Shown here: piece after piece, positions 3,286 to 62,777 of the stretch
Numbering within the stretch: position 1 is the first letter of the stretch
Layout of the letters: each line of letters begins with the position of its first letter
DNA from: Heterotrichella gracilis
Taxonomy: Eukaryota; Sar; Xanthophyceae; Tribonematales; Xanthonemataceae
Direction of reading: 5' to 3'
Assembly: GCA_032358255.1 (NCBI GenBank)
Contig: JAULBX010004444.1
Location: forward strand, 1 to 64,000
DNA length: 64,000 nucleotides
Program-made: the position numbers and the translations under genes
Notes under the pieces: model-generated
Told to the model about the DNA's origin: nothing
The model's input: the letters and a program-made list of their open reading frames with translations, nothing else
Database searches by the model: none

Positions 3286-6200
3286 ATGGCGAGCACCATG
3301 ACTCACGCTGGTGAGTACACGCCACCAGCGCATGTCCACTCACCGTGGATTACACCCAGCCAGGTGGCTATTGCACTGTCTATCAAGGGTGGTAGTGGTC
3401 TTGACTGTGCACTAATACCAAGGGTTGACAGATCGTGGCCGTGCTTATGCCGGCTACCAGCATGCAAACGGACAGACCACGCGAAGTATGCCTGTGTTCC
3501 ATGTACCAAAGAAAGTACAAACTGAGCAAAGGGAGCGTGTGCTACCCGTGCTTTCCTCCACACCCTCAGTGTCTGTTATTACTGCAGGCCTGTCAGCACG
3601 CAGCACTGCCTTTGCTGGCGCCCGCCTGTCCAGCGCCCAAGCAAAGGTGGGTGGGTGGGTATTGGCTCAACTCTTGACACGCACGTGCATTGCCATGAAG
3701 CACCTCACCCGCCGTGAACAACATAGCTAATGTAGGGCTGACGGTGTAAGATGGGGCAGTTGGGCTGAAGGTGTAGGGTGAGGTATTAGGGCTTATGGTG
3801 CAGGGCGTGCACTGATGTCATGCCTCAGCACTAGTGTGTGTCAACAGAAAGGATCAGGGAGGAGCAGTCAGCAGGCACTGGGATATTGGGCATATCCCTG
3901 CACGGCATGTGAGCAAGCCAAGTTCTATGAACTGTGCAGCCGCTTCACCGCCAACAGGGGGTCTCCGCAATAGCTCACCCCACCTTACACGTTATACCTG
4001 GCATGTAAAAGTACTTCATTTACAATTACCGATTGATATAAGTTGTTCCAGTCCCACTGTGCCTGCAGGCTCCCCGTGTGGCGGCAGGCAATGGAGTTGT
4101 TGTCATGACCTCCAACGCCGAGAAGGTCAACCCCTATGTGGAGGAGCTCAAGGCGACAGCAAAGTACATCTCAAACCGCGGCAAGGGCATCCTGGTGAGG
4201 CCGTAGGGAATTTGCAGCCTAGTTTGTGGAGCACCTGACTGCTCAATGCCTGAAAAGCCAGGGAAATTTTGATACCATTAAGGCATCAGCAAAGTACAAG
4301 TCGCACCATGGCAGGGGTATCCTGGTTATACCCTAGGGTAATAGATAGGGATTTGCTCGTGAGATCTCGCAGTCTCACTGCAGGTTGTTGTTGTCTGCAG
4401 ATGTACCTCAATCTGCTCATCTCTCAATGCTCAATGCCCAATCACCCTTTCGCTGGTATAGGCATCTGCTTAAATGCATATGGGCGATGCTCAGGCGTCC
4501 ATGAATCGAGCATTACCCCTTGCAACATTCAGCATTTTAACGGCCAAATGCTATCCATATAGCACACCCCACCTGGACTCCTGCACCCTAAACCACCAAA
4601 CTCGTCGCTGATCATTACATGTTGCTGATCATTACATGTTGCTGATCATTACCATGGCGCTGATCATTGCCATGTTGCTGATCATTACATGTTGCTGATC
4701 ATTACATGTCGCTGATCATTACATGTTGCTGATCATTGCCATGTTGCTGATCATTACAGGTCGCTGATCATTACATGTCGCTGATCATTACATGTTGCTG
4801 ATCATTACATGTCGCTGATCACCACCATGTTGCACCCCGTCAGGCCTCAGATGAGTCCAACACCACCACCGGCAAGCGCCTCAACTCAGTGGGCATTGAG
4901 AACACAGAGACCAACAGGAGGGACTGGCGCCAGCTGCTGTACACAGCGCCAGGTAGGATGATGGCAGGGAACCTTTAAGTAGGGTAATTGAGGCATCCAA
5001 GGGAGCTTGGCTAGCATTGGAGAACTGGCGGGCAGCCGCATAGAGGTTGGACTTTGGCTGCGCGAGGGTGGAAAACCCTTTGCGAGGCTGCTATGCGAGG
5101 CCTGGATGGGGTTGTTTAGAAAACTTGTCTGGGTCTCAGCCAGACCCCTGCAACTCATGAAATCCTAAGATCTTGGTATAAGATTGTACCACTGCAACTT
5201 GTACAGGCCTTGTCAGCTATTGACAGAGTTATCGAGAGAACGTTTCAGTGTTTTAGAGACGCTGCATCGCAAGGTACTCAAAACCTTAGCATCACATTTA
5301 ACACCTCCGGAAACCTAACCCAAAACCTTGTCCCTTCAGGCGTTGGATAGTACATCAGCAGCGCCATCATGTTTGAGGAGGCGCTGTTGCAAAAACCACA
5401 TAGACACTAGAATTCACTTCAAAACCCTAACCCAAAACCCTTGCTCCTCTCAGGCCTTGGCCAGTACATCAGCGGTGCCATCATGTTTGAAGAGACCCTG
5501 TATCAGGCACCTTAAACCCTACAACTCTCAAATTTTGTGCCCATGGTTGTCTGAGCCGCGGCGGGTGCTCATTACTATTCGTACCCTACCCCTACCCCTA
5601 CCGTCCAATCCAAACACCCCCGCATTCTTGAAATAACATCTCCAACCCTATCACTTTTGACACCCTTGCAAACCCTTCAGGCCTTGGCCAGTACATCAGC
5701 GGTGCCATCATGTTTGAGGAGACCCTGTACCAGAAGGCGGAGAATGGCGAGCAGTTTGTGGACATCCTCAAGGCGCAGGGCATCCTCCCGGGGATCAAGG
5801 TGGACACAGGGCTGCAGGTGGGGATGCGAGAATTAAACAGGGAGATGGGGCGTCTTTTTGCATCAAATTTGAGGCAAAGAATATGAACGCAGATGCTCTT
5901 GCACATGGGGATCTGTTAGTCACCCATTTTTGGAACCCCTGGTTCCGCCTGACGCATGTGATCATCATCTGCCAATTTCCACAGCCGGGGCCCCTCCTTG
6001 CATCCAAGACCAGCAGGTGGGTGATAGACAGCCTGGGGCACACTGCGCAGCCTGCTACAAATATGTATCTAACTGATAAAACAAGGCGCATCTAAGTACC
6101 GTTAGCACCTGATATCCAGTATTCAAATATACCCAGACCTTCTGAATCGTGTGTGCCCATCCTCGCAGCCTCTTCCCGGCTCAGATGGTGAGACCAGCAC

Positions 6201-8860
6201 CCAGGGATTGGACAACCTGGGCCAGCGCTGCGCGGCATACTACAAGCAGGGCGCGCGCTTTGCAAAGTGGCGGGCGGTGCTCAAGGTTGGATCATCCACC
6301 ACCGCTATCCTGGAGAACGCGCATGGCCTTGCCAGATACGCGCAGATCGCACAGGTGGGTGACCGTGGCGACCCTGCTTATACCCTACTTTAGGGTAAGG
6401 TTGTAGCATAGTACCACCACCACTATCCTGGAGAACGCACACGGCTTGGCCAGATATGCGCAGATCGCACAGGTGGGTGGGTCCCGGCAGTAATAAAGTT
6501 TAGGGTAATACCAGTCACATATATATTCAAATTTCTGGGAAGGACGCAAAGGTTGGGTTCGATTTGTTGCACGTGAACTTAACGTGAAGTACCATTGGCA
6601 CGTCGTACAAAAGGTACAGGGCTGACCACAACCGCCATTATGAAAAGTGCGCATGGCCTGGCCAGATGTGCGAGGCAACTTGCACAGGTACCTGTCGGCC
6701 GTACCTTAAAATTTATGGCTGCACGTGTTGGGGTCGGCGCGCTGTACCTTTCTCCGAGTACTGAGATAAAATTAGGACCTATTGTTATCCTAATTACCCT
6801 TGCTCCGAGTCTAGGGTATTGCCAAGTGGGTGAGGTGCTCAACGGATCCCACAGGCGTTACCGCTTTTTGCTTTGAGGTTTGGGGGCCGTTGGATGTGCA
6901 TGGGGCTGCAGAAAATGCCACGTGGAAACAAAACACGCATGGCGCACAATCCAAACCCTGAACCCTAAAACAATGCTGTGGCTGTCAGCAAACCATGCAT
7001 GCGTGCCTCAGGCCCAAATACTTAATTCCCAACCCCAATTCTGCCCAAAAACACACCTTTCTTGAATCCCCGCAGGAGAATGGCCTGGTCCCCATCGTGG
7101 AGCCCGAGGTCACTCTTGGTCCCGGGGACTACACCATTGAGGAGACTGCGTACTGGAGCGAGAAGGTGTACTCGCACGTGTTCAGGCTGCTGAATGAGTA
7201 TGACGTGGTCCTGGAGGGTATTCTGCTCAAGCCCAACATGTGCCTGCCAGGTAATTATTGACTGCAACAGATGCCTGTGTGGGATCTGGCGGCATTTTGA
7301 AGGTGGTTGGGTTGGGTTGGGTTTATTTTGTGGATTTAGAGCGAGAAGTGTACTCGCACGTGTTCAGGCTGCCGCACGAGTACGATGTGGTCCTGGAGGG
7401 TATCCTGCTGAAGCCAAACATGTGCCTGCCAGGTAATTTGATGGCAAAAGATGTCTGTGTGAAAATCTGTGCATGAGGGCGACATTTTGAAAATGGTTAT
7501 AGGGGTAGGGTAGGGATTTCTGTGAGTGAGGAGATTTACTTGCATGTCTGCCAATTGCTGAATGAGTATGATGTGGTACCAAATGGCATCCTGCTCAAGC
7601 CAAATATGTGCCTGCCAGGTAATGGGACCATCAGCAGACACATGTTTATGCCTTTCGGCGACGGGTTGTCAGCCAGAATTGAACCGAAGTCAAAACCTTG
7701 CACTTGTACAGGTCTGGGCGTGCGCAACTCCGTCTGCATCCGCACATAAGACGTCAACAACCACACATATGGCACACCATGCAGCATGCAGCCCTCAAAC
7801 TCAACTCTAAACCCACAACCTTTTAGGCCATGGCCAACACCACCCCCCAAGCAGAACCTTAACCCTGACCAAAACCCTACTCCGCGTGCAGGCCTGGACG
7901 TCCCCACCCCTGCCCCCAAGGACGTGGCTAGGTTGACCGTGCGCACCATGAAGCGCTGCATCCCCCCAGCGGTCCCGGGGATCCACTTCCTGTCAGGGGG
8001 GATGGCGGAGGAGGAGGCAACGCTCAACCTGCAGGCGCTGCAGGTAGGAAAATGTGGAGTAGCTACTTCTCTTATACTTTTTAATTGGTTTGGCATATGC
8101 TTTACTGCGGTGCCTGTGCAGCGATTGGAGAGGGTGGTGGGGGGTGGAGGTGGCGTATGTGACGGGAGTGAATGGGGAGTGTCTTTAGTAGAAGGGAGGA
8201 TGCCAAAGATATTATTTGCTATTCAGGTTTTCTGCAGATCGGAAGCTGGCAATTCCCACTGGCAGAAGTAACATAATGCTCAATGGTCCCTCACCTGCAC
8301 TGTATTGAGAGTGTAGAATTGGTTTTGCTGACCGCTAGGGTTTCCCGCTTGCAGGAGGAGTACCCTAACGCCCCCTGGTCCCTCACCTTCTCATACGGGC
8401 GCGCACTGCAGTCAAGCACCCTCAAGGTGAGAAGCCTAAACCCTACATCCTGAACCCTAAACCCTAGCAATTCTCCTGCAGACGCGCACTGCAATCTACA
8501 TAATGCGGCAGCAATACCAGTCAGCTCACTGCCCACACATGGCTGCAGCTTGCCAACATGCCCTTGTTTTGCCTATTGAGTACTGCAAACGATTGCAAAG
8601 ATTCGTATATAACAGGTAAAAAACGAGGTATTTTGGCGCAATGCAACGCACACCAAATGTTTTTTATACTAATTCTTCCCATCCCCACCTTGCAGACCTG
8701 GAAGGGCGAGAAGGAGAACTGGGACTCAGCTCAAGAGATCCTTGTCAAGCTGGCCAAGGCCAACAGCGAGGCGCAGCTGGGCAAGTTCAAGGGGCCACAC
8801 CCGGTGCCAGGGGGTGAGCGCATCCTGCAGGCGCTGCGCCTGGGCGGGCCCGGCTCCTAG
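3286..8860 (+). CDS. FBA: Class I fructose-bisphosphate aldolase, plastid type (10 exons)
   Basis: Catalyses reversible cleavage of fructose 1,6-bisphosphate (and sedoheptulose bisphosphate) in the Calvin cycle and glycolysis. Exons: 3286-3310, 3588-3646, 4069-4194, 4844-4952, 5681-5817, 6169-6354, 7076-7250, 7892-8043, 8355-8426, 8696-8860. All phases join to give 401 aa, the usual plastid length. The start has a strong context (CCACCATGG). The first ~35 residues are rich in Ala, Ser and Arg ([14 protein letters not shown]), as in a chloroplast transit peptide. Family landmarks in order: [18 protein letters not shown] near residues 67-83, VPIVEPEV near 219, the Schiff-base lysine in EGILLKPN (Lys266), and [15 protein letters not shown] before the C-terminal part. 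Several introns contain decayed copies of neighbouring exon ends (listed separately), and intron 3 holds a minisatellite. This is the most certain gene in the window. Confidence 0.95.
4283..4330 (+). repeat. Echo of the end of aldolase exon 3 inside intron 3
   Basis: The sequence gcaaagtacaagtcgcacca continues as a mutated copy of the last ~40 bases of exon 3 ([12 protein letters not shown] plus donor), about 125 bases downstream. The frame is broken and the copy cannot encode the exon. It is colinear and on the same strand. Confidence 0.75.
4607..4831. repeat. 17-18 bp minisatellite in aldolase intron 3
   Basis: About 13 tandem copies of a unit close to GCTGATCATTACATGTT, with variants (TTGCCATGTT, TTACAGGTC). 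Each unit carries the palindrome TGATCA. The array ends about 12 bases before the acceptor of exon 4, so the pyrimidine tract of that acceptor directly abuts the array. Confidence 0.95.
5331..5520 (+). repeat. Two acceptor-side echoes of aldolase exon 5
   Basis: Two copies of the start of exon 5, each with its own CAG acceptor (AG at 5338-5339 and at 5452-5453), precede the coding copy (AG at 5679-5680). The second echo is nearly identical for about 55 bases and encodes [16 protein letters not shown] before running into a stop. The first is more diverged. CCCTAA-like tracts lie before the acceptors. Confidence 0.9.
6405..6700 (+). repeat. Two donor-side echoes of aldolase exon 6
   Basis: The end of exon 6 ([19 protein letters not shown] plus GTGGGT donor) is repeated at about 6411-6480 with few changes and, more decayed, at about 6615-6692. 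Both lie downstream of the coding exon in intron 6. Confidence 0.9.
7140..7690 (+). repeat. ~185 bp tandem triplication spanning the exon 7 donor
   Basis: The segment holding the end of exon 7 (including the codons around the Schiff-base lysine), its donor (GT at 7251) and the first ~80 bases of intron is present three times, with donors at 7251, 7433 and 7619. The second and third copies have frame changes upstream of a well kept [10 protein letters not shown]-encoding stretch. Intron sequence such as GGCGACATTTTGAA is copied too, which shows the unit spans the splice junction rather than being exon alone. Confidence 0.93.
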
Positions 8861-9910: not shown

Positions 9911-12900
9911 TCACCACAAGTCCCAGCGCCGGAACTTCTCCACGAAAAACCCAAACAGCAAATTCGCAACCCCCTGCGCCAGCACCGCGGGTCCCAGGGA
10001 TTGGAACATCACCACCGGGGCCTGGAGGGCGGCAAAGGTGGCAATCGCCACCACGAAATCTGCTTCCGCCAACAGGTGTGAGCATGCGTAAATGAAGGAG
10101 GTGAGGAGCAGGGCTGAGGGGTCCAGCGTGGTGATGTTGACTGCGGCAAACGGGGGGGAAGGGTTAAACGATTTAAAAAAAAAGGCAATTATTTGGGCCC
10201 GTCAATCTAATGAACTCCGCCAGCAGGTGTGAGCATGCATAGATGGAGGAGGTGAGGGGCAGCGCGGAGGGGTCCAGCGTGGCGATGTTGACTGCGGTGA
10301 AGGAGGGGGGGAATTGTAAATAAATTAAATAAACTAGGTAATTATTTGGGCCAGTTATTCAATACATTCCGCCACAGCCAGCAGGGTCCAGCATGCAAAT
10401 ATGATGGAGGTGAGCAGCGGGGCGGAGGGGGCAAGCGTGGTGATGTTGCCGGCGAGGTAGGTGGGGGGTAAACTGAGTAAAAGACAGGGTAGCCCATTAG
10501 GTCAGACCACTTCAACAGAATCTGTCTCTGTCAACAGGCTCGAGGAAGCGAATATGAATAAGGTGAACAGCAGGGCAGAGGGGCCCAGCGCGGTGATGTT
10601 GACTGTGGTGACGGAGACACTCAATTCGTGTATTCCAATGATATGTACTGATTACACAGTCAGATGGAAAACATCTGGGGGCATTCTATTAACGTGGTGT
10701 CGTGCTTGTAGATGGTCTCCTGTGGGCGTTCCTATTCTTCATTCTTTGTGCCATACCTGTTGTGAGCGAAGGGTAGTCTGCTGGGTTGAGGTACTTGACG
10801 ATCATGCGGTACACGTAGCCGCGGTAGTACACCTGGAGCCACAAGAATTAAATAAATCAATGAAAACGCGTGATTTATTTGCTTACTTCTCAAAATGTGC
10901 GGCAACATCCCGCAAAACATTTGCCGTGAGATTTTGGCACCCGAAGGTGCTGTGCTGTAGCATTGCACATAGACTACCGGTATGTGACATATCTCAATAT
11001 CGTGGAGTTCACCGTCATGTTGTGTATGGAGCCCCCCCTGAACACAAGACTTAGCAATGGCTACAATAGCAGCACCACCCTCAGAGTCACTGTGGTCCGC
11101 ACCATGGCCTGGTCCTCCACAATATATATCGTATAAATGCCTAAATTGGTTGCCATTTTGGTGACCCACCTGGTCCCAGAAGGCTGTGGCTGTGGCTGAC
11201 TGCACCACCCTCAGAAACACCCACCCTTTCCCGGTGCCCCCCATCATGGCGGGATCCCATCTGCCCAGGGACGCCCACCATGATCCATCCTTTGCTTATG
11301 GACAAATCCCTCGTACACATGCCCAACATGGCAACCCACCTGGTCCCAGAAGGCAGCGGCTGTGGCTGACTGCACCAACCGCAGGAAAACCCACCACCGG
11401 GCTTTCACTGGGTCTTCGCTGTACTTGGTGTAGGGGTTCCAAGCCTTCTTGTCATCTGCAGTGGATACAAAGAGGCACTGTCCTCATTAATGTGGAAATG
11501 GCAGCAAAATATCCAAGAACAAAGCAACAACAGAGGGTTTGAGGTTCACAGCACTGTGTCAGGCTCACCAATAATACATTCAAAGGTACAAATGGCCCGG
11601 TTGGCCTGACGAAAGAGGAGTTTTCATGCGTCACGTGGTTACAGAAAATTAATATGTAAGATATTCTGCTGAACATTATCACAACGCACGGCGCTCAGGA
11701 AAGAGATGTAACCACTAATTACCTGAGCCGTATTTCCGCGCCGCTCGGGTGACGATTAATATCCGGAGCAATGCCAGGAGCGCCCCGCCCGCCACCGCCG
11801 CCAGGGCGGATGTGGATGTGATGCCCATGCGGAAGCCTATGAGGGCGAATGAGGCGAATTGGCCCCACACCAACAGACCCACCAGGCTCAGGAAGCATCT
11901 GCAGGAATTGAATTTTGGTTTACGTTTTTGCCCTTGCAAACTTTCAAGAATAAATCCAGCATTTCCTTATATGACTGAATCCAAGTGCAGATGGAGCACT
12001 TTGATGTTTTGTTTGTTTGATGCGGCTGCGGAAGCCTATGCGTGCAAAGGAAGCAAACTGACCCTTCGTGTTTACCATTCGAGAAATGGGCCCTAGGGTT
12101 TAGCGTTTGGGGCGGTACCTGATTGGCAGCAGGTCGTACGAGTCCCACTTGGTCATGTGCTCGATGACTTTTCCCTTGGCGTACAACAGGTGCCCCACGC
12201 AGTGGAGCGCAGGTTCGTAGGACTCCCCCTTTGAGATGAGCATGAAGCACACGGTTTGCAGGGGGACGAACAGCGACACTCCGTTGTGCACCTGCGGCGT
12301 AAACAGGATGTATAGTTTAGGGTTTGCAAGGGGACAAAGAGCTATACGGCCCTGTGCGCCTGAGCCACCAATGGGGTGTAGGGTTTAGGGTTTGCAGGCC
12401 AAGAGAAAAAGTGGTAAAAGAGCTCACACAGGCAGCGGTGGTGCAACCCAGGCCACATTGTGGGTCCCAGGAATACCGGCTGTCGGGTATGTATAAGCGC
12501 ATCAGAAGGCCATCTGAGAGACCCAGCCTTGGCCCTCTCAGAACCAAGTACCATTGTAGTTGACCGATTTTCCAGTGCAAGGTGGTAGTTGTCTGCTGAA
12601 CAAGAGGTTCACTGCAACCTCTAACCAGCTAAGTATCCAACAATCTGCAGGAGGGTTTTCCCTCAGTGTACCAGGCCTAGAGTGTGGGAGCGCATCAGGA
12701 GGCTCTTTTGCCTCCTGGCGCAGGTCTCTCTGTAACCAGTCACCTAACGATATAAAACGCAACTGCATCGTTACCTGCTGGCGAAAGTGCGTGAGCGCAT
12801 CAGGAGGCCGTTTCGCCTGTGCTTCCTCGTCCAGTGCTGCCTGGGATTTTGGGGGCTTGAGCTCTCTCTTACGGGGGAGCGGCTTGTGCCGTGCTTCCGG

Positions 12901-14013: not shown

Positions 14014-16722
14014 ATGGGTAGACCGAAGAAGGCTGCACTTGGGTTGTACCCCCACCACGAGGCGCCCACCTGCGACTGGACCAGGCTCCCAAGCCAGGCT
14101 CTGGTGAACATCCTCTCCAGGATCGAGCCCGCGGATGAGCGCGCACGCCTGGCGCTGGTATGCAGACGGTGGCGCACCCTCCTGGCAGACCCCATCGCTT
14201 GGGCCCACATCGCCCTGGAGCCACCCATCGAGCCGCCGACCGCCAGCTGGCGTTTCGGCCTGCCCGTCGGCTCGCTCAGGTCCTACAGCCTCGCCAACTG
14301 GCTGACCTCCAAGCTGGGTAGCGCCAGGAGCATCACGGGCATCACCCCAGACATCCTGCTGCGTGCGATGGCAATGACCCATTCCCGGCCCTGCCCGCTT
14401 TTGGAGAACCTCACTCTTGCCGCCGAGCACCGCCCCACCTCCTCCGCCACTGTCAGCCAACTGGCAGGGCTCTCAAAGCTGACCAGCCTGTCCAACCTCC
14501 ACATAGAGGTGGTGTCAGACCAGTGCTTCACCCCACCCAACCTGGGCACCCTCGCCGCGCTCCCCAGCCTCCAATCCCTGGGACTCACCCTCCACGAGCG
14601 CCCCTCCCCCTTCAAATTCAGTCCGGTGTTCCTCCCCTCCTTCACCTCCATAACAGACCTCCACCTGGCCCTCAACTGCGGTCTGGACCGCCTCCAGCCC
14701 TGGCTCGACTCCCTCCTCAACCTCAGGTCCCTCTACCTTACCCTCCTGGACCCTCTCCAAGGGTCTTGCACCTTCCCCACGGCGGGGGCGCAAACCCTAG
14801 CGAGGGTAACCAGCCTCACCCTCTCGGCGACGGTGTGTCCATGCTTCCAGCTGCATCTGCCTCCGCGCATCACCGCAGCTATGCGCACGCTACGTCACTT
14901 GGGCATATCGCTCACCCCCTTGCCGGTGGGGGCACCCCTCCCGGTAGCTTGCCAGGTACGGATACAGCTGTTGGAGTAGGGATTCTAAGGTTTAGGATAG
15001 GGATTAGGGTATTTCTAGAGCACAAGTGTTCGTGTCCTTTCTCCCGTCATCACTGCCGCGATGCGCGCGCTGCGTCACCTGGGCATATCGCTCACCCTCC
15101 TGCCGGTGGGGGCGCCACTCCCGGTAGCATGCCAGGTACGGGGGACAGTAGAGATTTGAGGGTTTTAGGGCATAGGGTGTAGGGTGTAGGGTTCAGGATT
15201 TGCGCAAGAGCACAAAGGCATGTTCCCCCCTCCCAGCATCACTTTCTCACTGCGCATAGCTCGCCACTCAGGAATATCGCTCATTCCACTTGTTAAATCA
15301 GGATGGTCAGTATATGCGCCTGTAATGGCGATCTGGGTAGCTTGTTGCTTATCGATTTGCTTGTGTTTTTCCAGGAGCAGCGTCTGGCGACTCCCCCTTG
15401 GAAGTTGATGACCAGCATCCCCCCTGAGGACCAGGGCTTCTCCCCTGACCCAGTGGAAATACCCTCTGGGGTTTCAGATCTCACAGGGCTGGAGTGCCTG
15501 GAGCTGGAGGGACTGCTGCCCTCTGCCCAGGTATGGATTTATCTGTTCATTCACGCATTTACCTGCATCTTCTGAATTTATATATTTTCACTGCAATGAG
15601 TGTGCGGTCAATAAGGTGTGATCAAATGCCATCGATATGTTGTCGTAGCATCATCCCGCTTGGGCCAGTTGTCCATGGCTTGCCAGGTCCTGTCCTCCCT
15701 CACCCAGTAAGTTGTCAAACTGCACAGCCACATACATATTATTTTCGTCATTGGTGTGTCCTATTTTTTCAATTAACATGTTTATGTGCTTTTTAGGTCC
15801 TGTCCCACCTCACCGCCCTCACCGCGCTCAAGCTGGCAAACTGCGCAGCCACCGCAGAGCGCCACATGCCCTGGCTGGCACACCTGCCCCGCCTCGTACA
15901 CATTGATGTCTCCCACAACAGGATGTCAACCATACTCCCCTACGATCTGGCATCCCGCTCCCCCCCTGTGCATGTCAGTGGCTGGTCCGCCTGGCGCCCA
16001 GGTTAGTGTTGCCTTTAAAAACATGTTATTTTATAACGCTACAGAGATGCATGTCATTGGTGGTCTGCCTGGCGCCCGGAGGGGTAGTATTCGTCATCAT
16101 TATGTCATATTGCATTCGAGATTGCACATTATTACTCTGTTAATCTAGGTCAGGGCATGCCTTTCTCTGCGCTCTCTCGTCTTCCACCATAAATGCGCCT
16201 GTCAATTGACAGGGTTGTGCAGTAACGCCTTTATTTGTGCTGATTTACCTCTTCTACATTAACGCGCCCGTCCATTGGCAGGCTGCCGATGTGTCCCTTA
16301 CCCACTTGAAATGGGACCAATATACAAAAATAAAAAATATTCATGTGTTTGTTTGTCTGCCATCCAGGTCAGGAGCGGGCCCTGGCCCTCCTCCACCCTG
16401 TCACCGGCATGGCATTGTGTAATTCCTGTTTATATAATACTTTTAGGTATGTATTATATGACTAAATCATGGTGTTTGGCCCTCAGGTCAGGAGCGGGCC
16501 CTGGCCCTCCACCACCCCGTCAGCGGCATGGCGTACACCATGACGTCGATCGCCGGCCAAAGGGGGGTAATGTACTTCTCAGACGCGGTGGAGCTGGGGT
16601 GCGCCCAGGGGGAAAAGGCTGCGCGCAAAAAGGGGTGGGGCAAGCCCGGGAGCGCCAGGGAGCAGGAGGCTGCATTTTCCTTTCTGCAGCGGTTCGAGGC
16701 GCAGCATGAAACAGCGGGGTGA
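14014..16722 (+). CDS. F-box / leucine-rich-repeat protein (4 exons)
   Basis: Exons 14014-14955, 15375-15530, 15797-16001, 16487-16722 join in phase to 512 aa. The first residues (MGRPKKAALGLYP) are basic. An F-box lies at about residues 23-68 (WTRLPSQALVNIL, then ALVCRRWRTLLADPIAW). Irregular leucine-rich repeats follow (LTSLSNLHI, LPSLQSLGLTL, LLNLRSLYLTL) and continue through exons 2 and 3 (LTGLECLELEG, LTALTALKLANC). The last exon, rich in Lys, Gly and Ala, is less repeat-like. The likely role is substrate selection in an SCF ubiquitin ligase; the substrate cannot be guessed. The frame is open upstream to 13903, but the ATG at 14014 directly precedes the basic leader and the F-box and is preferred. 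Confidence 0.88.
15030..15290 (+). repeat. Two donor-side echoes of F-box exon 1
   Basis: The end of exon 1 (MRTLRHLGISLTPLPVGAP region plus GTACGG donor) recurs almost intact at about 15048-15140 and in a more decayed form at 15228-15295. AGGGTTTAGGATAGGG-type tracts lie between the copies. Confidence 0.92.
15640..16440 (+). repeat. Echoes of F-box exon 3 start and end and of exon 4 start
   Basis: A copy of the exon 3 start with CAG acceptor lies at about 15685-15735 (AGGTCCTGTCCTCCCTCACC). A fragment of the exon 3 end is at about 16045-16085 (GTCTGCCTGGCGCCCGGAGG). A copy of the exon 4 start is at 16365-16420 with intact CAG acceptor and about 45 nearly identical bases (GGTCAGGAGCGGGCCCTGGC). 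The coding acceptors come last. Confidence 0.88.
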
Positions 16723-18270: not shown

Positions 18271-18868
18271 TTCTATTCCTCCAGCCTGGCCAGCGCATGG
18301 CCAAATATCAGCAACAAAGGTTCTTTGTTGCAACACAGCGGGCTGACACCTGTCCTCGCCCGGGTACCCACTTGGATGTGCACATGACACGAGTATACCC
18401 CAGGAAGTCACGCCACCCGTCCCATGTCATTGCCCTGCCCCCCGCCACCCCAGTCGATAACCCCCTCCAGCCTGGCCAGCGCATCCCGGATGGCAGCAAC
18501 AAAGGTGGCCTGGTGCAGGACGAAGGCCGACACCCACCCACCCACCCACCGCAGCTCGCACCCTTGCCAGTGCGCATGTGACACACGCCTCACACCAGGA
18601 AGGTCTGCCAGCCATCCGCGCATCGCCGCCTCCTCCCCTCTAGCCAACCCGTGTCATTGCACCACCCCTTCTACCCCCTCATGCCTGGCCAGCGCATCCC
18701 GGATTGTCGCAACAAAGGTGGCCTGGTGCAGAACGAAGGCCGACACATGGTCCCCTCCAACCCAACGTAGCTCGCACCCCTGAAAGTGCATGTGACACAC
18801 GCCTCACCCCAGGAAGGTCTGCCAGCCATCCGCGCATCGCCGCCGCCTCCCCTCTAGCCAACCACGTG
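18270..18868 (-). repeat. Three post-stop tandem echoes of the last ABHD18 exon (~200 bp unit)
   Basis: The end of the last ABHD18 exon and its flanking 3' sequence is repeated at about 18670-18868, 18460-18650 and, partially, 18270-18330. Shared words include CCAGCGCATCCCGGAT, CAACAAAGGTGGCCTGGTGC and GAAGGCCGACAC. Neighbouring echoes also share 3'-flank sequence (AGGAAGGTCTGCCAGCCATC), so the unit spans the stop codon. Confidence 0.93.
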
Positions 18869-51684: not shown

Positions 51685-51702
51685 ATGGCCAGCCCTGCAC
51701 CC
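51685..51702 (+). pseudogene. Orphan first six codons of a MYND gene copy
   Basis: ATGGCCAGCCCTGCACCC, preceded by a kept leader (AACCACCCCACC), encodes MASPAP and matches MATPAP at the start of the MYND gene at 55512. Homology ends right after codon 6 and the sequence turns into the left end of duplication copy 2. This marks the duplication junction. Confidence 0.88.
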
Positions 51703-53126: not shown

Positions 53127-54890
53127 CTACTGCTTGGCCAGCTTGCCCTCCAGGGCCTTGGCCAGCAGCTCTTCAGACAGCTGCGCAATGAGCACAAGGG
53201 CATGGGGTCAGCCCCAGGAAGCAAAATGGCAATTCGCACATCCACAACTGTCGGGCTGGGGACTCTTCAGACAAGTGTGCATGGAGCGGCAGTCGAGGCT
53301 TTGATATTTTGTTATTGTTACATAATAACATGGAGCGGCTTGGCAAGGTCAGCCTAGGCCATACCATGCACAGTGCGGCTTAAAATTAACGCAATCCCCG
53401 GGGGGATCCTAGTAGGGTTTACTTTGCTCGTTAAATGATGACAGCCGCTCCGAGGAAGACCTGTTTAGGGTGTACGGGTAAGGGGTTTAGGGATCCTGAT
53501 CCACCCCTCACCTCCCAGAATTTCTTAGCTTTCTCCACATCCTGCGCCTCCTTGTTGGGAGTCACCACCTGGCAGTCTGACAGGTAAGCCCCTGACTGTG
53601 CCTCAAGTGCTGGGTCCACACATGCAACTATGGTGGTGGCGGCGCCGGCGGGAATGCTCTTTGCAAACAGCGGGGCGGCCATGGCCCATACAGCCCTGAA
53701 AACGCTGCCCATGTGGCGGGCCGCGTTGGTTTTGATTGCGCCTGGGTGCAGGCTGTAGGCGGTGACAGGGGCGCCCTCCTCCTTCATCCTGCAATGGATT
53801 AAGGGTTTTCGGGTTTTTTTTAGGGTTTAGAGTTATCGTGTAGGGAAGATGTGCAGAGGCAGTGGCGGGGACACAAACGTGTTCTCCCTGTGCTATCCTC
53901 CAGGATACATGGGTGTGCATCTGTGCTGCGCTGCACGCAGGCAGGCTTGATCACAATCGCGCACTTTAGTTTGCAAAGCGTCCAGGTGCATGCAGGGGGC
54001 GACCATCATGGTGCAGCAGGGGGCGACCATCGCAGTGCGGCAGTCAGGCACCTGGATGCAGCACATGGATGCGGCACTGGCTACCGCATGTGCCCCACCC
54101 TACAAACACTGCTGTTCATGAAGATTATTGGCACCCACCTCCTGGAAAGGTCATTTGCAAACAGCACGTGGCCAGCTTGGACTTGCCCATACGCATGCCA
54201 CTGAATGCCCTTGCGCTTCTCCCAGTTGACATCAGCCACCGGCCACAGGATGTGCCCCGCCGCTGTGAGCAACCCTAAACCCTTCATGCAGTTGATGATA
54301 TTGGTTCACCAGGAATGCACCACCCACCTCCTGGAAAGCTCCTTGGCAAACAAGACGTTGGCCAGCTTGGACTGGCCGTATGCTTTCCACTTGTTGTACT
54401 TGCGCTTCTCCCAGTTGAGGTCATCAAGGTCAATGGGGCCCTAGGCGTGGGCAAGGGAGGACACAGCTACCACGCGCGACTTGATGCCCTGTGCGCGCCA
54501 GCAACAAAGTTAATTGATCTTTTTAATATGTCATGTCAAGTTCATTTTATGAACTTCTTTATATGAATTTGTTTCTCCTCTGCATTGAATTTATTTCTCC
54601 TCTGCGATTACACACACACAATCGAGTCTTGTGAGACCGCCAAAAAAAATTATTGTGAATTTTGTATTGTTTTAAATCATGCCCATCAACTAAATAACTC
54701 ATGATATCGCAAGGAGCACGATTGCGGTGCGCCCATATTGACTCGACGAGCGCGACTTGCACTTGACGTGGCTCACATTAACGCCGGATACAACAATGCC
54801 CGATCAAGGCGTTTGGCAACACAGTAAGTCAGGGTCATTGTGTCAGGGTTTAAGACTGGTTCATGGGTCCCCACCTGTGCCTTCAAATTG
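53127..54890 (-). pseudogene. Truncated duplicate of the short-chain dehydrogenase
   Basis: Exon copies: exon 4 at 54488-54328, exon 5 at 53788-53512 and exon 6 at 53180-53127. They have exactly the lengths of the intact gene's exons (161, 277 and 54 bases) and retain splice sites. Exons 1 and 2 and most of exon 3 are deleted; only the last ~12 bases of exon 3 and its donor remain near 54868-54885. Exon 4 has an in-frame TAG at 54443-54441 in place of TGG (Trp166 of the intact protein). Exons 5 and 6 are fully open and differ mostly by scattered substitutions, so decay is recent. An extra decayed exon 4 copy lies at about 54125-54260. Confidence 0.92.
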
Positions 54891-55511: not shown

Positions 55512-58500
55512 ATGGCCACTCCTGCACCCCCACAAGACCCTCACTCTGACGATGACGCCCCCTCAAAGTGCTGCGCATGCTGCGGCACCTCCTCCTCTGC
55601 CAAGTTCTACACCTGTGCAAAGTGCTCAAGCGTGGTCTACTGCTCAAAGGTGGGTGTAGGGGTGGCACAAAAATGCCGCTCACCTTGCCGGCATGCAAAT
55701 CGTTTAGGCAGGCAGGCGCATTGCAGCATTGCCAGGTTAGGAGCCAGCAAAGCACCTAGCATTGCACCTATAAACTGCCGTATATTCTCCCAGTTTTTTG
55801 TACAGAGTTATGTAGCTGACTGTAGTGTAGACAGTGTAAGGAACCTGGTTGGCTCCCTCACTTGACTGTTCTCGGATAATCTTCTATGTTCATACCAGTA
55901 TCGCCCTTTCAGAATCACCAACTCTTCACTTCTAACCAACTGATGATGTCCCACCCAGGACTGCCAAAAAAAGGACTGGAAGACCCACAAAAAGCAGTGC
56001 AGCGCCCTGTTCAAGCAGAAGGTGCAGCAGACCAGCGAGCAGGAGGCGGACCGCACCTCGATGAAGTGGCAGGCCAAAGGCAACCTGCTGCACCTGTTTC
56101 GGATACAGGACAACCAGAAGGGGACTGTGGCGCTGGTGTCACGCCCCAATGGGCCCATCCCCGACCAGCTGCGGGTGTGCTGGTGCGCGGGGGAGGAGCT
56201 GCAAGGGCAGCGCGTGTTCGGGTGCGGTGAAGGGAGAAGGGACATGGTTTAGGGCTTTGGTAATGGTGTAACACGGGTTCCATTAGAGCAGTCGATGAAC
56301 AGTCATCTGCTGCAAAGCTTGCACCAGGATGCAAAGTTTACGCCGCATCTTAGTGTGTGTATAGTCTCATTTTGGAATAACATACCGAGTTGTAGACATC
56401 AATACTTCCTATTTCTTTGGATGTAAATAATACTTTTAACGTTGGTTGGAGTCACGCCACTGCACAATCTCCTCAAAACCAAATATTTGTTGGAAATCAC
56501 GCGACCACACATGCAGGTTCCTTCACCCAGAGATGAAGGTCGTGTGCGTGCCGCTCAGCACCCTGCAAGCGCTCAAGGTGGCCCCGGCAGCCACCCAGGA
56601 AGCCAAGTTTGGCCCCAAGTATGATGTCTTCTCGGAGCCCTTTGGCTTTTCAGACACCCGCAGCACCATGCTGAACGAGTTCAAGTGGAGGCTGCACATG
56701 CACAGGGTGGACAAGGAGCTGTGGGTGAGTGCGTTAGCCTGTTGGTCCTGCAGCATCACCGATTGACCAGCTTATTTTTCTTTTGCTTGGATGCACATTG
56801 TCTCGTGGGCATTGATGGGGGGATTGCATGGCCCTAAATCACATGTGCCTTGCCAGCGGTGATCATGATACGTTGTAATACTCACTGAGGGGGAGGGGGA
56901 AGGTGCACTTGCACAGGGTGGAGCTGTGGGCGAGATGGATAGCCTCCCAGTACATTGTAGTACAGCTTGGAAAGGAAGGATAGCGCCTCCACAAGGGTCT
57001 ACTCTACCATCATGCCATGCATGCAATCATGGGTATATATAGGCTTTGGAGTCACAGTGGCTGTCCTCAGACATGCCTTGGCCTCCACAGGCGAGCATGG
57101 TAAATGTGACCCTCCTACTTCAGCATGACACCACAGCTTAGAGAAAACTATAAGATCAAATCCTTCAGTAACGAACTTGAAGAATGAGAAGAGAATTAAG
57201 CAAAAAAAACAAAGCCAAAACCATCCTCCTGACCACGTTTACTGATCTTTTAGGCGAGCATGGACAATGTGGCCTGCCTGGATGACTACAGCTCGGTGCA
57301 GGGCGTGGAGGTCAACGCATGTGGCTTCCTGCTGCAAGCATCCGAGGGGTCCAATGGCGAGCCTGTGGAGAACGACATGGGCGAGGTGCAGCTGCCCCCC
57401 GCCACCCCCAAGGCCACCATCTGCTCCAAGCTGACCAGCTGTGGCCTGGGAGAGACCAATGGCTTTTTGTACCTGCAGTATGCCGGGCTGGAGGCATGCT
57501 CCCTGACTAGGTAAGTGAAGAGTTGGCCACCAGGTGCATTCACTGGTTAGGGTAATTTTTCGCCTGCCAGGTGCTAGGGTTTTGTGGATGATGGTATGGT
57601 TGAGCTACAGCCCCTTCGAGGCCACCATCTGCTCAAGCTGACCAGCTGTGGCCTGGGGGAAACAAACGGATTCCTGTACCTGCAGTACGCGGGGCTCGAG
57701 GCATGCACGCTGACAGGTGGGTGAAACAAATGGCCACCAGGTGCCAATAGGTACCTTCATGGTTAGGGTAATTTGGAGGCATCCACGCTGACCCAGTAGC
57801 CTAGCAATAATTATGACTTTATTGAAAAACAGCCAGTGCTCCTGGCAGCCGCCACTGCATAATCCTCACTCGCTCATTTGTGATTCCCTGCCCATTATTT
57901 AGGAGGCAAATCGACACCATCCGCTCCAACCTGGCAGCCGCCAGCGCCATGGACCAGGATGTTGCGGACCAGGCGGCTGCGCTGGGGCTGGACGATGACC
58001 TGGAGGAGGAGGCTGACTCGCCTGGCGTGGTGCCCTCCTCGCACTTGCTCAGCACAACCAAGAGGATCTCGCCGCTGCCAACAGGTACTTTTAAATACCC
58101 TAAACCCTAAATATTAAACCCTAAATATTAAACCCTAAATTCGCCTGGCGTGGTGCCCTCCTCGCACCTGCTCAGCACAGCCAAGAGGATCTCGCCGCTG
58201 GCTACAGGTAGGGGTGAAATGTAAAACCCTAAACCCTATATATCCAAGCCTGCACCCTGCTTGCATGTGCTCAAATAAGCAAGGTCAATGGGTGCATAAA
58301 ACCTTAAGAGGAGGCTGACTTGCCTGGGAGTGGTGCCCTCCTCGCACTTGCTCAGCACAACCAAGAGGATCTCGCCGCTGCCAACAGGTACTTGGTTTAA
58401 AACCTAAACCCTTGATCTCAAACCCTAAACTCTCTTCGCACCTGCTCAGCACAACCAAGGGAACCTCGCCGCTGCCAACAGGTACGGGTGCGTTTTGAAA

Positions 58501-59180
58501 CCCTAAACCCTACGTATAAAACCCTAACCCCTCCTCACGTGTGCTTCAAACAACCAAGAAGAAATGCTCGCTGCCGACAGGTACTAACGCCAAGGTATGT
58601 CACCAGATACTTATGTCACCAGCCCTGCGTGGGGAATTCTGTACCTGTGCGTTGTCCATAGACCCTCGTCATGAACCCAATACCCTAGCGTCCCTAACCA
58701 TTACCCTCCCCTCTGCCACCAGTCGCCGAAGAGGGAGCAGCACCCGAGTCGCACCCACCACAGGAACAGGCTGCTGCTGAGACAGCAACCAAAGGAGCAG
58801 CATCCGACCCACACCAAGCCCTTGAACAGAGCTCACAGGAGCAACCTCCAGCTGCTGACTCAGCGCAAGCAGATGCAATTGCCATGTCACCAGACCCTGC
58901 TCCAGACTCAGACCAGCCCAGCCAATCCTCGTCAATCCCTGGGACGCACCCTGGCCCAGACCCAGATGAGAAATTCGTGTGCCTGGCGGTGCTCATGGAC
59001 GCCCGCAGCGAGTTTGACAACCTGTACGATTTCGAGGTGGTGGTGTTCAAGTCGCGGCTGCACAGGATGCATGTGGACCAGGTGCCGGAGGCGCTGGTAC
59101 CCTATTGGATGGATAAGTTGGTTGGCACCGATCTGTATCAGATCAACCAGTTTGCGCCGGTGACGTTTGTTGGCCTGTGA
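55512..59180 (+). CDS. MYND-type zinc-finger protein (6 exons)
   Basis: Exons 55512-55649, 55959-56221, 56517-56724, 57254-57510, 57903-58084, 58723-59180 give 501 aa. An N-terminal MYND finger spans residues 21-60 with the full ligand set: Cys21, Cys24, Cys35, Cys38, Cys44, Cys48, His56 and Cys60 (core VVYCSKDCQKKDWKTHKKQC). MYND fingers bind proline-rich peptides and recruit transcriptional or chromatin partners. The rest (for example KWQAKGNLLHLFRIQD, FGPKYDVFSEPFGF, KFVCLAVLMDARSEFDNLYD) does not match a SET or other domain I know. A Glu/Asp-rich and Pro/Ser/Gln-rich linker lies at about 330-435. The exon 2 donor was set at 56222 (GTGCGG) rather than 56227 because only it keeps phase with exon 3. 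Kozak context is CCACCATGG. Confidence 0.88.
57605..57730 (+). repeat. Donor-side echo of MYND exon 4
   Basis: About 110 bases (GAGGCCACCATCTGCTCAAG to GAGGCATGCACGCTGACAGG) copy the exon 4 end. Flanking intron bases (GTGGGTGAA...GGCCACCAGGTGC) are repeated too. A one-base loss breaks the frame. Confidence 0.94.
58085..58600 (+). repeat. Four-copy donor array with telomere-like spacers after MYND exon 5
   Basis: The coding donor (GT at 58085) is followed by copies of the exon 5 end with donors at 58208, 58388, 58482 and 58581. The copies share CTCAGCACAACCAAGAGGAT and CGCCGCTGCCAACAGGTAC. After each donor comes a CCCTAAA tract (58098-58139, 58223-58240, 58404-58430, 58498-58530). Copies shorten and decay downstream. 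Confidence 0.95.
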
Positions 59181-59214
59181 GAGTGCCACCCTGAAGCTTT
59201 GTTGTTATTTGAGA

Positions 59215-59480
59215 ATTTCACTTTGACTGCCAATGGTGGCAGCCTCGTGGCAGTGGGAGCTTGCAGCATAGATTGTAAAGTGGGGTGAAATTATGCCAAT
59301 GGGATGCATGTGGATCAGGTGCCAGAAGCGGTGGTACCCTACTGGATGGAGACTCTCTGAACTGAGTAGGTGGGCACCGATCTGTATCAGATCAACCAGT
59401 TTGCGCCGGAGTCTTTCCTTGGCCTGTGAGAGTGCCACCATGGCAGCTTGATTTTATTTTTAAACAGCTAATGGGGGCAG
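59215..59480 (+). repeat. Post-stop echo of the last MYND exon
   Basis: GGGATGCATGTGGATCAGGT to TTTCCTTGGCCTGTGAGAGT (59298-59432) repeats the last ~45 codons, stop and 3' flank of the gene. The further flank (GGCAGCCTCGTGGCAGTGGG) occurs at about 59239 and 59479. A frame-breaking insertion lies in the echo. Confidence 0.94.
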
Positions 59481-60445
59481 CCTCATGGCAGTGGGAGTGT
59501 TTAGCATTATGCATATGGGATTTCAAACCATGCGCCTTGCGCCCATGTGGAGCTGGTTTGCCTGCCAGACTGCGTATGCCCACAGATCCTGCTGCACATT
59601 TTGCGATGGTTTATTTTAAAGCCATTGCATGCGCCACCGCATCGCTGCAGGGCGACTTGCAAGTGACTGGTGGGTGGAAGTTTTGACGCCCTGGTGACTA
59701 CGGAACCACAGTGATGCAGGGCAGGGGATGCATAAAAGAAGTAATAAAATGCTATTTGTGGCACACTGGAGGCTTTACAGGGTTAAGCACTTCTAAGTGG
59801 GCCCTTCCAAAAGCACCAGACGATGTCACATACGATAAACGGCAGTTGGAGCAGCAGCACTTCAGAGAAAGCACCTCCTGCGCTTTTGACAACGAACGAT
59901 AAGTTACAACAGCGCATAATGCGCAACTATTGGACAATCATAGGGCTACGCTCATCAGTCCATAACCTGCCTGCGTTTACAGCAACTTCACAGCGGCAGC
60001 AGCAGTGCTGTGAGATGGAGTGCTTTGCACTGGCTTTGCCACAAACAGACATGATGTCCTTGGCAGCCGCTGGGTGAATGTAACATGTAATGAGCGCTCA
60101 TTACACGCTGCTCAGCCAGAGGCCAGGTGGCGGAGCGGCAGCTGGCCGCCGCAAGGGGTTGAGTTTAGTGCGTGGCCGAGGGTTGAGTTTAGTGCATGGC
60201 GAAGTGGGGAGGCTGGCCGCTGCAGTAAATGCTAGGGCGTAGGGTCGAGGGCAAGGCAAGCTACGGGGGCTGGCTGCTGCGACTGGAAGAAGGCCCATCA
60301 AGGGGTCCATCTAGGAGTCCATGTAGGAGTGTCCATCTAGAGGTGTCCATCTAGGGGTGTCAACCTAGGGCCGATAAGGGTCCACTAGGGTTCCCGTAAG
60401 CTCCATCTAGGGTGCCGCTCTGTGCATGGACCGCATGCAGGCTCC
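59481..60445. other. Convergent intergenic region between the MYND and PRA1 genes
   Basis: AATAAA at 59745 may serve the MYND transcript. A short direct repeat (GGGTTGAGTTTAGTGC) occurs at 60158 and 60181. At 60302-60372 lies a minisatellite of ~15-base units (GTCCATCTAGGAGTG type) that would fall in the PRA1 3' untranslated region. No gene is seen. Confidence 0.5.
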
Positions 60446-62777
60446 TCAAAGCGTGTAGTCGTGGTAGTTGGACTGCTGGTAACCCCGCCTGCAACAAAAC
60501 GAAGCAACGTGAGAATGCACATGCCCAAATGCGGGATTCGGAGCAGGAATAGGGAACAGGCTGTTTTAACCCCTAACGCTGAACAGCTGCGGAAGCGTGT
60601 GAGGATGCAGGGTGAGGATGGCGCACGTATGGCGGATACATGTACCCCTTCACCCTGGGATCCATCCAGGACCACGTCATGCAATGGCTCAGCAGGGGAT
60701 TGCCAATGTCCAGCAGGGGTTGGTGCGCACCATACTGCCCTGAACTCCTCCCGTGCGCTTGCGATGCGGGCCTTGAGGTTGGGTGAGCGCAGGCTGGCGT
60801 GCACCAGCACAAGGCCCCAACCTGCAAATGCGGGACACACACACCAAGGTCAGGATCCAGGGTGCTTGAGTTACGTTCATTATGGTGACTGGGCCTCACT
60901 CCAGTGTAGATCAGGCTCTAGGGTTCCTGGTCGTTTGAGCCGACACCCAGGCACCCTATACCTGAGCCCAATCCGTTCAATGGCCCACAGCCCACTCCCC
61001 GCACTGGCGCCAATCCCGCCACTGACACCGTGGACATCCTGTGCACCTATCCCGCATCCATGCAGCTATGCTTCCTCCAAACCACGCACCAATCCCTGCA
61101 CTGCATCGATCCCCCACAATACACCCATCCGGCTGGCACCCCATAATATCCCCCACCAATCCCCACACATTCCACACACCTGTGCCCAACGCCCATGCCA
61201 ATGTAAGCAGCGCCCCGTGCGGTACAGCATACACAGTTGCGCCAGCCCTGGCACTCATTAGGGTATTGTGGCCAGCTGCAGCAAACCCCCTCTCCGCCCA
61301 CCCCACCCCGTTGCATTCCCCCTGCCCCCCATATTTTTGTTCACCCACCTGCGCCCAGCGCCCATGCCAGTTTGAACATCGCCCGCGTGCGGTAGAGCAT
61401 GTACAAGGAGCACAGCCCCAGCACCGCCACCAGAAGCTTCCGCTTCACCCCACCCACGGTCAGGTCCTTGGTGCGGACGGTGGCGCCGGGCGGCCTGCAG
61501 GGAGGCGGGGGGCACAGTTTAGGGTTGGGGGTTAGGGTGGGGTTCTATTATACCGGGTCCGCAGCTTGGCGGTACGGCGCCCATAACTATTGCCTTTCAT
61601 GGAGGTAATTATGTCCTTAACTCAACACATGATGTCTGGTGGGCTGCACGGGGGCGCAGCTGGCCATGCACGGATGAGACCGACCTCCTTGCGCCAACCC
61701 CAATAACACACCAGGCTGTTGTGCGATGGCAATTGAGAGGGCGTTCAGGCGGATTGCGCTGACGGTCAAGGGTGGAGCTAGTGGTGGTCAAGGGTGTTAG
61801 GTTTCGGCCCTTACCCTAAGCTGCTGCCTGCGTTTGACTTGGCTCTCAGCTTGAGTGCCAGGGAGGGGCTGACCTTCCGCATGGCCTTGAGGAAGGCGTC
61901 ACTGGGGAAGGGCGCCACAAGGGGGTATGTCAGCAGTCGGGCCAGAAACCCTAAACCCTAAACAGGAAAACGGGTCCTATAGATGCCTCTTGTATGGACC
62001 ACTACACATGGTAAACATGCGGCTTGAGGGACTGTAATGATATACTCAACAATCACGAGGAAAATAGTAGAATTTTGGTAAGTGTTTATTCTGTAAAATT
62101 GCGTTGCGGCAGGTCACACCGCCATGACTCGTGCATAAAAAGTCATCCAATGCAAGACTGGAGCGCCAGCAGTCTGCAGGTGCGCATTAGGGTATGCTGC
62201 AATTCACATAGGCCACCCAGTGGAGCATGTCTGCGCGCGTTGCTGTGCCCTTGGGGAACCCTATACCCTACACCCTCAACCCTAAGCACTCACTTGATGA
62301 AGGTTGCGAACGAGTCGTTGAGCAGCAGTGAGGCAAACACCGACAGGGCCAGGGCAAGGAATGCCAGCGGTCTTCGGAAGAAAAAGAGCACAAAGCTTGC
62401 CAGGACGATGAGCACGTAGTTGGTGCGGTAGTAGTAGATGTTGCACTTTAGCCTCGAGCTCCACTTCTTGTGGTCCTTGGGGATGGTGAACTTTTGGATG
62501 AACTCAAAGACTGGGCGGGGGGCTTGCCTCCACTCAACCTGCGGGCCAAGCACTTCTTTTAGGTCGTGTCCTATACCTGGAGGGCTGCACCCCTTCCAAC
62601 CACTGAGCTTGTGCCATACTATTGAGTAGAGCATAGTGTTAGCAACAATAAACTTGTTCATGAGAGTGATATTGCTAACGTGGGATTTTGGACCCTTCAG
62701 TTCCAAGAGTCAACAAGTGGACCCACCTCTTGGAGGGCAGAGGCAAGCTCATCTGCTGTGACATGGGACCAGTCCAT
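60446..62777 (-). CDS. PRA1-family protein (prenylated Rab acceptor), 6 exons
   Basis: Exons in coding order: 62777-62727, 62538-62294, 61901-61815, 61494-61349, 60821-60731, 60488-60446; they give 220 aa in consistent phase. The PRA1 pattern is clear: a short start (MDWSHVTADELASALQEVEW), RPVFEFIQKFTIPK, NIYYYRTNYVLIVLASFV, then two long hydrophobic hairpins (about 57-95 and 135-180) separated by a basic linker, and a tail with NLKARIASAREEFRAVWRGY. PRA1 proteins are four-helix membrane proteins of the ER, Golgi and endosomes that bind prenylated Rab GTPases and promote vesicle traffic. The length is typical. Exon 1 is only 17 codons and was placed from the conserved start; the frame open on the other strand there has no domain. 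Confidence 0.92.
61188..61262 (-). repeat. Donor-side echo of PRA1 exon 4
   Basis: On the + strand, GCCCAACGCCCATGCCAATG to CGTGCGGTACAGCATACACA copies the end of exon 4 (61349-61420), about 160 bases further into the intron in transcription order. Confidence 0.88.

Follow-up and report, generated by a model that had tools for sequence, protein, structure and literature searches.

The first 64 kb (64,000 nucleotides; hereafter the window) of contig C47 of the xanthophyte Heterotrichella gracilis carries genes whose exon-intron borders recur, in diverged form, within the adjacent introns; we call these copies echoes. C47 is 137,828 bases long and belongs to an assembly of 68.5 Mb in 903 contigs. 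Gene models came from a small ab initio gene finder trained on the window, 19 of the 20 sampled 10-kb loci and 50 kb of contig C24, which converged on the splice signals CAG/GTGGGT for donors and TGCAG/G for acceptors (the slash marks the splice site) and predicted 11 genes, g1 to g11, in the window. A protein library returned matches for six of the seven window proteins compared, the remaining four genes lying outside that comparison, and identified class I fructose-bisphosphate aldolase, ABHD18, CAP, short-chain dehydrogenase (SDR), MYND and PRA1 genes. Taken by themselves, the TTTAGGG telomeres, the splice motifs and the gene content would suggest a green alga as the likely source.

Self-alignment of the window showed many same-strand repeat pairs with spacings of 50-1000 bp, and self-BLAST gave 37 local same-strand clusters. 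Inverted pairs numbered 36 in the window at E<=1, none with its copies within 3 kb. A junction-spanning copy was present in 30 of the 37 clusters, against a null of 0.44 (s.d. 0.07), a count not reached in 2000 circular shifts; in nine of the 37 the boundary of a copy fell 2-8 bp into the intron (null 0.04). The duplicated segment comprises roughly 30-150 bp of exon edge with a few to many intron bases and is placed in the adjacent intron. Echo copies matched only part of the exon in 40 of 57 comparisons, and paired copies had a mean identity of 82%, differing by about 18% on average. From g1 to g11 the genes held 0, 5, 3, 3, 4, 4, 12, 1, 1, 3 and 1 clusters, so that ten of the 11 ab initio genes were affected. 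An earlier note, made from the letters of the window, had described exon-edge copies in at least 10 of 11 multi-exon genes, colinear, on the same strand and spanning the junction so as to include intron bases, and had proposed self-alignment against random positions as a check. The counts above confirm the observation, and homology continues into the intron beyond the splice signal in 33 of 45 well-matched echoes (those with more than six unaligned junction bases being excluded).

The coordinates of the echo series are collected in the table below. A repeat unit of 170-200 bp occurred in 16 of 61 clusters of the echo-rich loci defined below, with a peak near 180 bp, which perhaps reflects nucleosome spacing, the cases being too few for a claim. 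More than one offset was seen in 34% of rich-locus clusters versus 30% in poor loci, hence no extra recurrence in rich loci. A minority of repeats are plain minisatellites within an exon or an intron: positions 4604-4833, an intron-only array of about 13 copies of a 17-bp unit within an aldolase intron, and 25011-25321, an in-frame repeat in g6 coding SPKP units.

Table. Exon-edge copies and their echoes in the window, with the basis of assignment where given.
Feature	Positions	Strand	Basis
Aldolase exon end and donor 4150-4208 (donor after 4194), echo 4280-4338	4150..4338	+	self-alignment
Acceptor series: echoes 5311-5387, 5423-5506; real copy 5662-5733 (exon start 5681)	5311..5733	+	real exon by profile
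Exon end and donor 6283-6361 (donor after 6354), echo 6397-6479, telomere-like sequence between	6283..6479	+	echo superfluous to aldolase
Donor series: real 7156-7255, echoes 7339-7437, 7524-7623	7156..7623	+	self-alignment, aldolase comparison
Donor of aldolase exon 8355-8426, then telomere-like run (~8435-8467)	8427..8470	+	sequence read
Acceptor series of exon 9911-10140, further copies up to 10608	10057..10608	-	
Donor end of exon 11340-11455, echo 11164-11225	11164..11395	-	
Exon end and donor 14868-14961, echo 15048-15141; copies end 6 bp into intron	14868..15141	+	
Acceptor echo 16365-16413 of exon start 16487; copy starts 3 bp before exon	16365..16532	+	
ABHD18 gene: several exon end/donor and acceptor copies; ABHD18 profile match 18899-19108	18256..19006	-	
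Donor-side copies 21700-21804, 22031-22135	21700..22135	-	
Donor copy 25918-26012, echo 26029-26121, telomere-like intron part	25918..26121	+	
Donor copy 30690-30777, echo 30790-30878	30690..30878	+	
Acceptor series ending at exon 31404-31570	31025..31490	+	
Donor copy of exon 33605-33817 and echo	33748..34122	+	
Donor copy of exon 34326-34457; echoes 34512-34573, 34691-34752	34411..34752	+	
Acceptor echo 35274-35344 of exon 35466-35628	35274..35533	+	
About 3 copies, spacing ~197, of exon end and donor after 36900	36767..37295	+	
Acceptor echo of exon 38839-39016	38637..38917	+	
Acceptor echoes of exon 39548-39748	39271..39592	+	
Donor copy of CAP-gene exon 42655-42798, echo 42857-42939; matching stretch single in paralogue g6	42758..42939	+	
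Acceptor array, several copies, ending at exon 43502-43781; matching stretch single in paralogue g6	43059..43660	+	
Donor copy of exon 43502-43781 and echo	43734..44000	+	
Acceptor echo 44213-44274 of exon 44435-44649; copy starts 4 bp before exon	44213..44493	+	
Donor copy of exon 44435-44649 and echo	44543..44923	+	
Donor echo of SDR exon 54328-54440; apparently collinear echo in paralogue g8 (48588-48652)	54132..54418	-	
Donor copy of exon 57254-57510 and echo	57411..57774	+	
Donor array of exon 57903-58084 with telomere-like runs	58006..58584	+	
Donor copy of exon 58723-59159 and echo	59065..59497	+	
Donor echo 61173-61230 of PRA1 exon 61349-61494	61173..61400	-	

Echoes at this density are a regional feature and not one of the genome at large. 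By exon sequence alone, within 800 bp, exon-edge echoes were found at 57 of 245 junctions in three rich loci (the window, L007 on contig C15 and L008 on C18) versus seven of 574 elsewhere (Fisher p ~7e-25, junctions within a gene not being independent), and the same search with reversed targets gave no matches. This junction test left out exons below 30 bp and targets below 150 bp; genes with less than 150 coding bases were also left out, as were L002 (33% GC), L001, which lies inside the window, and L034, which overlaps L033. The rich loci contributed 43 of 174 junctions (window), 11 of 37 (L007) and three of 34 (L008, which is milder). Because they had been picked after cluster density was seen, density, junction share and polarity were rechecked on L037, the following 10 kb of C15, which was added afterwards and adjoins a rich locus. 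L037 held seven clusters, six of them junction-spanning, with a polarity of 4:0 and echoes at seven of 23 junctions. Repeats covered 12-24% of introns and 14-22% of exons in rich loci and 0-2% of intergenic sequence, as low as elsewhere. A mixture of two species in the assembly is not favoured as the source of the rich/poor split, since relative synonymous codon usage correlates at 0.985 and all four ABHD18 matches in a profile search of the genome's contigs fall on the window's own contig. Nor did CpG loss, taken as a sign of exon methylation, differ between rich and poor loci. The omitted L002 (G000:C1:100001-110000) has 33% GC at that place of an 894-kb contig, unlike the other sampled loci, and is possibly a contaminant or another replicon.

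A circular-shift test alone is insufficient for judging the preference for junctions, because it ignores visibility: repeats that contain exon sequence stay recognisable longer, one copy being conserved. We therefore compared the loci with simulations of duplication, selection and decay scored on true exon coordinates, with L016 excluded from the base loci of the uniform-duplication version; an initial version in which the gene finder did the scoring (junction share 0.17-0.27) was discarded, since drift in the simulation wears down codon bias. Among 61 clusters in rich loci the junction-spanning share was 0.80, with 0.066 intron-only and none intergenic. Uniform tandem duplication gave 0.37-0.50, 0.28-0.38 and 0.09-0.16 for these three classes; adding non-matching filler gave 0.28-0.39, 0.33-0.43 and 0.16-0.19, and allowing breaks at the splice consensus 0.31-0.35, 0.36-0.40 and 0.15-0.18. 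Visibility bias alone is thus insufficient, with 28-50% junction-spanning clusters simulated against 30 of 37 observed in the window. The 20 clusters of poor loci (0.35, 0.25 and 0.05) lay near the uniform simulation, apart from an in-exon share of 0.20, above the simulation, which forbids such repeats. After selection and visibility, then, placement in rich loci was not independent of exon borders, and poor loci fitted such independence roughly. The claim of near restriction to boundaries stands in the rich loci. The claim that neutral tandem duplication would produce the pattern survives as to neutral decay and fails as to uniform placement, which predicts far more intron-only and intergenic repeats, and as to head-to-tail arrangement (see below).

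A more sensitive scan of the three rich loci gave 84 events (55 junction-spanning, 13 exon-containing, seven intron-only, four intergenic and five exon-only), and of the poor loci 57 (18, 5, 14, 3 and 17, respectively). By a cruder test, which does not separate exon echoes from intron-only repeats and took eight of the 18 poor loci, 50-base windows in rich loci matched nearby sequence in 0.195 of 742 intron cases and 0.244 of 390 exon cases. Of 92 copies, not all independent, 21 ended 2-7 bp into the intron and none at 8-9 bp, where simulations gave 0.06-0.12 and 0.02-0.04. The idea that every copy is cut off at the splice consensus was considered and rejected, given the continuing intron homology, even though ends at 2-7 bp were two to four times commoner than simulated.

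The copies are often separated by unrelated-looking gaps rich in telomere-like sequence. The ratio of copy length to spacing had a median of 0.59, and the gap was at most 5 bp in only 17 of 61 pairs (28%), versus 51-66% in pure-tandem simulations of similar decay; the head-to-tail adjoining expected of uniform tandem duplication was therefore not the rule, and of the description as decaying tandem copies the decay holds and strict tandem order does not. Neither the filler described next nor the regional confinement figured in the earlier note. In exploratory tests on the 31 gapped junction echoes, heptamers of the TTTAGGG/CCCTAAA type lay between the copies in 17, versus six of 31 mirrored flanks (discordant cases 13 versus 2, sign test p 0.007). 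In 13 of these 31 they lay no more than 40 bp from each end of the gap, where 4.2 were expected from random introns of the same loci. Rich introns contained 17.4 heptamers per kb, compared with 2.5 in rich intergenic sequence and 4.9 in poor introns; within rich introns the density was 32.6 per kb inside repeats versus 14.1 outside.

Heptamers also concentrate just inside donors. At donor positions +15 to +30 they were present in 42 of 137 rich introns (75 per kb, falling to 8-17 per kb beyond 80 bp), including 16 of 75 rich introns with no detected repeat, and in 12 of 284 introns of poor loci. Reversed heptamers, a composition control, reached 0-6 per kb. Gaps of acceptor echoes carried C-strand heptamers only (five of 11 gaps, 17:0) and donor gaps both orientations (31:39), as would be expected if G-strand copies, with their AG, are purged before acceptors. 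Over 30 pieces of 10 kb, telomere-motif and cluster counts correlated (Spearman 0.67), and nine 3-kb loci around telomere-like arrays held 4.0 clusters per 10 kb. Interstitial words of the AAACCCT type were the most over-represented 8-mers in the window and sampled loci taken together; in the same set ATGCATGC was found 174 times against 46 expected. Contigs C70 and C140 begin with CCCTAAA arrays. Strings of donor plus AAACCCTA at 92-111 bp spacing were seen at C32:110439-110574, C41:138031-138178 and C93:31832-32146, among the matches listed (about 100 of 352), and are likely to be further echo arrays.

The echoes look like dead copies decaying neutrally. In 55 comparisons in which the echo was not a predicted exon, some of them from one array, differences fell at 146 of 1138, 144 of 1153 and 252 of 1147 sites at codon positions 1, 2 and 3 (12.8, 12.5 and 22.0%); with positions 1 and 2 equal and 3 raised, the echo shows no visible constraint, as the real exon alone would give the position-3 excess. 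GT or AG was kept in 19 of 28 echoes versus 22.5 expected from identity, after 27 echoes overlapping predicted exons and those with more than three unaligned junction bases were set aside, and the echo sites are apparently unused in splicing. Where both copies were predicted as exons, 0.64 of the differences fell at third positions (40 comparisons, with each pair counted in both directions); the in-exon SPKP repeat is among these pairs, and the gene finder selected them for openness. The rule that the real donor copy comes first and the real acceptor copy last held in 19 of 19 window cases and at 31:1 in the set compared with simulation. The pattern noted earlier is thus real; as an independent clue it falls away, because selection for frame survival largely yields it, simulations that require only survival of the real frame giving about 5:1 to 15:1.

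Some echoes keep open frames and pass as exons in the gene finder, and the aldolase gene offers an example. Its exon-like copies at 6434-6472 and 7340-7432 double stretches present once in solved aldolase: of these two accepted echo exons, one would be a 10-residue insertion and the other rematches residues 214-231. In a whole-genome search the Pfam aldolase profile marked six exons of the window gene and neither echo exon, which is weak evidence because the same profile also misses predicted exons 4069-4194 and 8355-8426. Of three further aldolase loci, those on C431 and C717 lack AAACCCT, and their introns measure 89-406 bp. Between them they carry a single repeat cluster, which lies where a C431 exon meets its donor and falls short of the junction-test threshold; 0 of their 22 junctions scored. 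At the third, C447:612-1877, the main match (858 bases) is uninterrupted by introns, unlike the others.

Paralogues within the window differ in their echoes. Gene g7 (33180-45968) probably fuses a leucine-rich-repeat-like gene, so judged from its translation, with a CAP gene paralogous to g6. The echo sets of g6 and g7 differ, so echo events, or losses, continued after the CAP split. Between the SDR paralogues (47567-48355 and 52953-53790) one intron is 85% identical with seven gaps, compared with 53 gaps in the echo-bearing intron, a difference suggesting that introns with echoes act as local hot spots. The exon beside the 85%-identical intron differs at 33 of 93 third positions and the terminal exon at none of 18; patchy conversion is a possible cause of this uneven divergence.

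We tentatively favour the reading that the echoes are scars of staggered DNA breaks at exon edges, repaired with duplication of the flank and telomeric filler. A break would leave ends staggered across the exon-intron border; fill-in of the overhangs would duplicate the exon edge with its intron bases, a telomeric stretch would be added to the exposed 3' end as filler, and end joining would close the gap. Events wholly within exons would be lost by selection, and those reaching the intron would survive with the observed polarity, because splicing from the first donor, or to the last acceptor, keeps the mRNA unchanged. Repeated events at one border would build arrays and longer introns.

Several observations weigh against this reading. 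The intron homology of those 33 of 45 echoes, together with the 17 of 61 pairs that adjoin, means that plain tandem duplication explains a share of the echoes; in a hand-picked set of 11, most of whose copies stop close to the junction, three had intron homology at p<0.01. A telomere motif stood at the exon-side seam in 21 of 40 echoes, with 19 of 40 at 20 bp further off (5-mers), leaving the seam unmarked. Before acceptors, at -6 to -45, heptamers rose modestly (14-27 per kb, nearly all on the C-rich strand, versus 9-18 deeper). Genome-wide, AAACCCTA occurred near donor-like sites 352 times versus 233 at 151-181 bp, overlapping matches counted, a weak 1.5-fold excess, as would be expected if only some regions are affected. 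The order of echo and filler events is unseen in this one genome, and all junction results rest on ab initio gene models from it, most tests being exploratory and many tried after looking at the data. We know of no source of staggered breaks that prefers exon edges; exon-edge nucleosomes, R-loops or splicing-coupled nicking are guesses, and CpG depletion gave no hint.

An explanation without border-directed breaks is that ordinary short tandem duplications fall evenly, the exonic ones being lost and those containing exon sequence staying visible longer, so that junctions only seem favoured. It accounts for neutral decay, for the polarity, roughly for poor loci and for the continuing intron homology, and intron 50-base windows match nearby almost as often as exon windows, many of these matches being echoes. 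We nevertheless consider it unlikely, as the rich loci had a junction share of 0.80 and an intron-only share of 0.06 in a count of 54 clusters, far from the simulated ranges. Moreover, the 85%-identical SDR intron beside a diverged exon implies that old intron repeats should be visible, although this yardstick is weak, given the unchanged terminal exon and possible conversion. Reverse transcription of pre-mRNA fragments around splice sites, pasted back near the gene, would fit copies that span junctions, often end near the edge of the splice consensus and spare intergenic sequence. Random pasting would not explain why the copies found keep the strand of the original and lie in the intron next to the border they repeat, and the intron homology often continues; dispersed copies elsewhere were not searched for, and we regard this route as improbable.

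A mobile element with telomere-like ends that inserts at splice sites and carries exon edges would explain the sequence just inside donors. It seems to us quite improbable, since by eye the fillers share little beyond heptamers, no systematic element search having been made. Retention of the copies or motifs for splicing, as spare exons, decoy sites or intronic enhancers, is a highly improbable account: the heptamers inside donors, the open frames accepted as exons and the third-position bias of both-exon pairs speak for it, yet echoes that are not exons lack codon-position constraint, their GT/AG is kept no better than identity predicts, and the motif is rare at the same place in poor loci and lies in both orientations at donors. 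An assembly artefact can be nearly dismissed, with copies about 18% different on several contigs and one echo apparently collinear in both SDR paralogues.

The reading of echoes as break-repair scars has partial precedents. In the horse, telomeric insertions during break repair sometimes come with direct duplication of the flank, for which staggered breaks are invoked; plain flank duplication was reported at three of 66 horse loci, and the intron share of human insertions was as random (PMC7215372). The echoes resemble such mammalian insertions in having short telomeric stretches inside chromosomes, as expected of telomeric insertion at breaks; the heptamers between copies of gapped echoes may be an indirect counterpart of the flank duplication. 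The echoes differ in that heptamers and duplications concentrate at splice borders. Local direct duplications in plants have been attributed to the interval between adjacent nicks (as cited in PMC7464560). The echoes share their local, direct character. The duplications described by Vaughn and Bennetzen in 2014 are not known to be tied to exon-intron borders or telomeric filler.

Intron gain is described through tandem duplication of AGGT-bearing segments and during break repair (PMC3443670), processes that likewise produce duplicated splice-like sites and direct repeats at introns. AGGT duplication would be expected to leave one copy over the donor and its partner over the acceptor of a single intron. 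Here, by contrast, existing introns seem to lengthen, and the typical pair is a border and an intronic echo, the partner copy sitting in the intron (as read from the repeat listing, not a formal score). Tandem exon duplication (PMC9013439) also makes local same-strand copies of exon sequence, whereas the echoes are mostly partial, decaying and apparently unused. No description of junction-tied echoes was found among the matches listed from open-access PMC papers, most subscription papers lying outside that search.

A wider proposition, which we consider possible but rather doubtful, is that in certain chromosomal domains exon-intron borders are recurrent break sites coupled to transcription or splicing and healed with telomeric repeats and exon-edge copies, so that splice sites themselves drive intron growth. 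On the practical side, echoes fool gene prediction, as in the aldolase gene, because their coding frames and splice motifs persist long enough. If the scar reading is true, duplications and telomere-type insertions both mark exon borders, and the real exon would serve as an internal clock by which each event of intron lengthening in this alga could be traced. The echoes would then make it possible to test directly whether DNA at exon edges becomes open to breakage through transcription or splicing.

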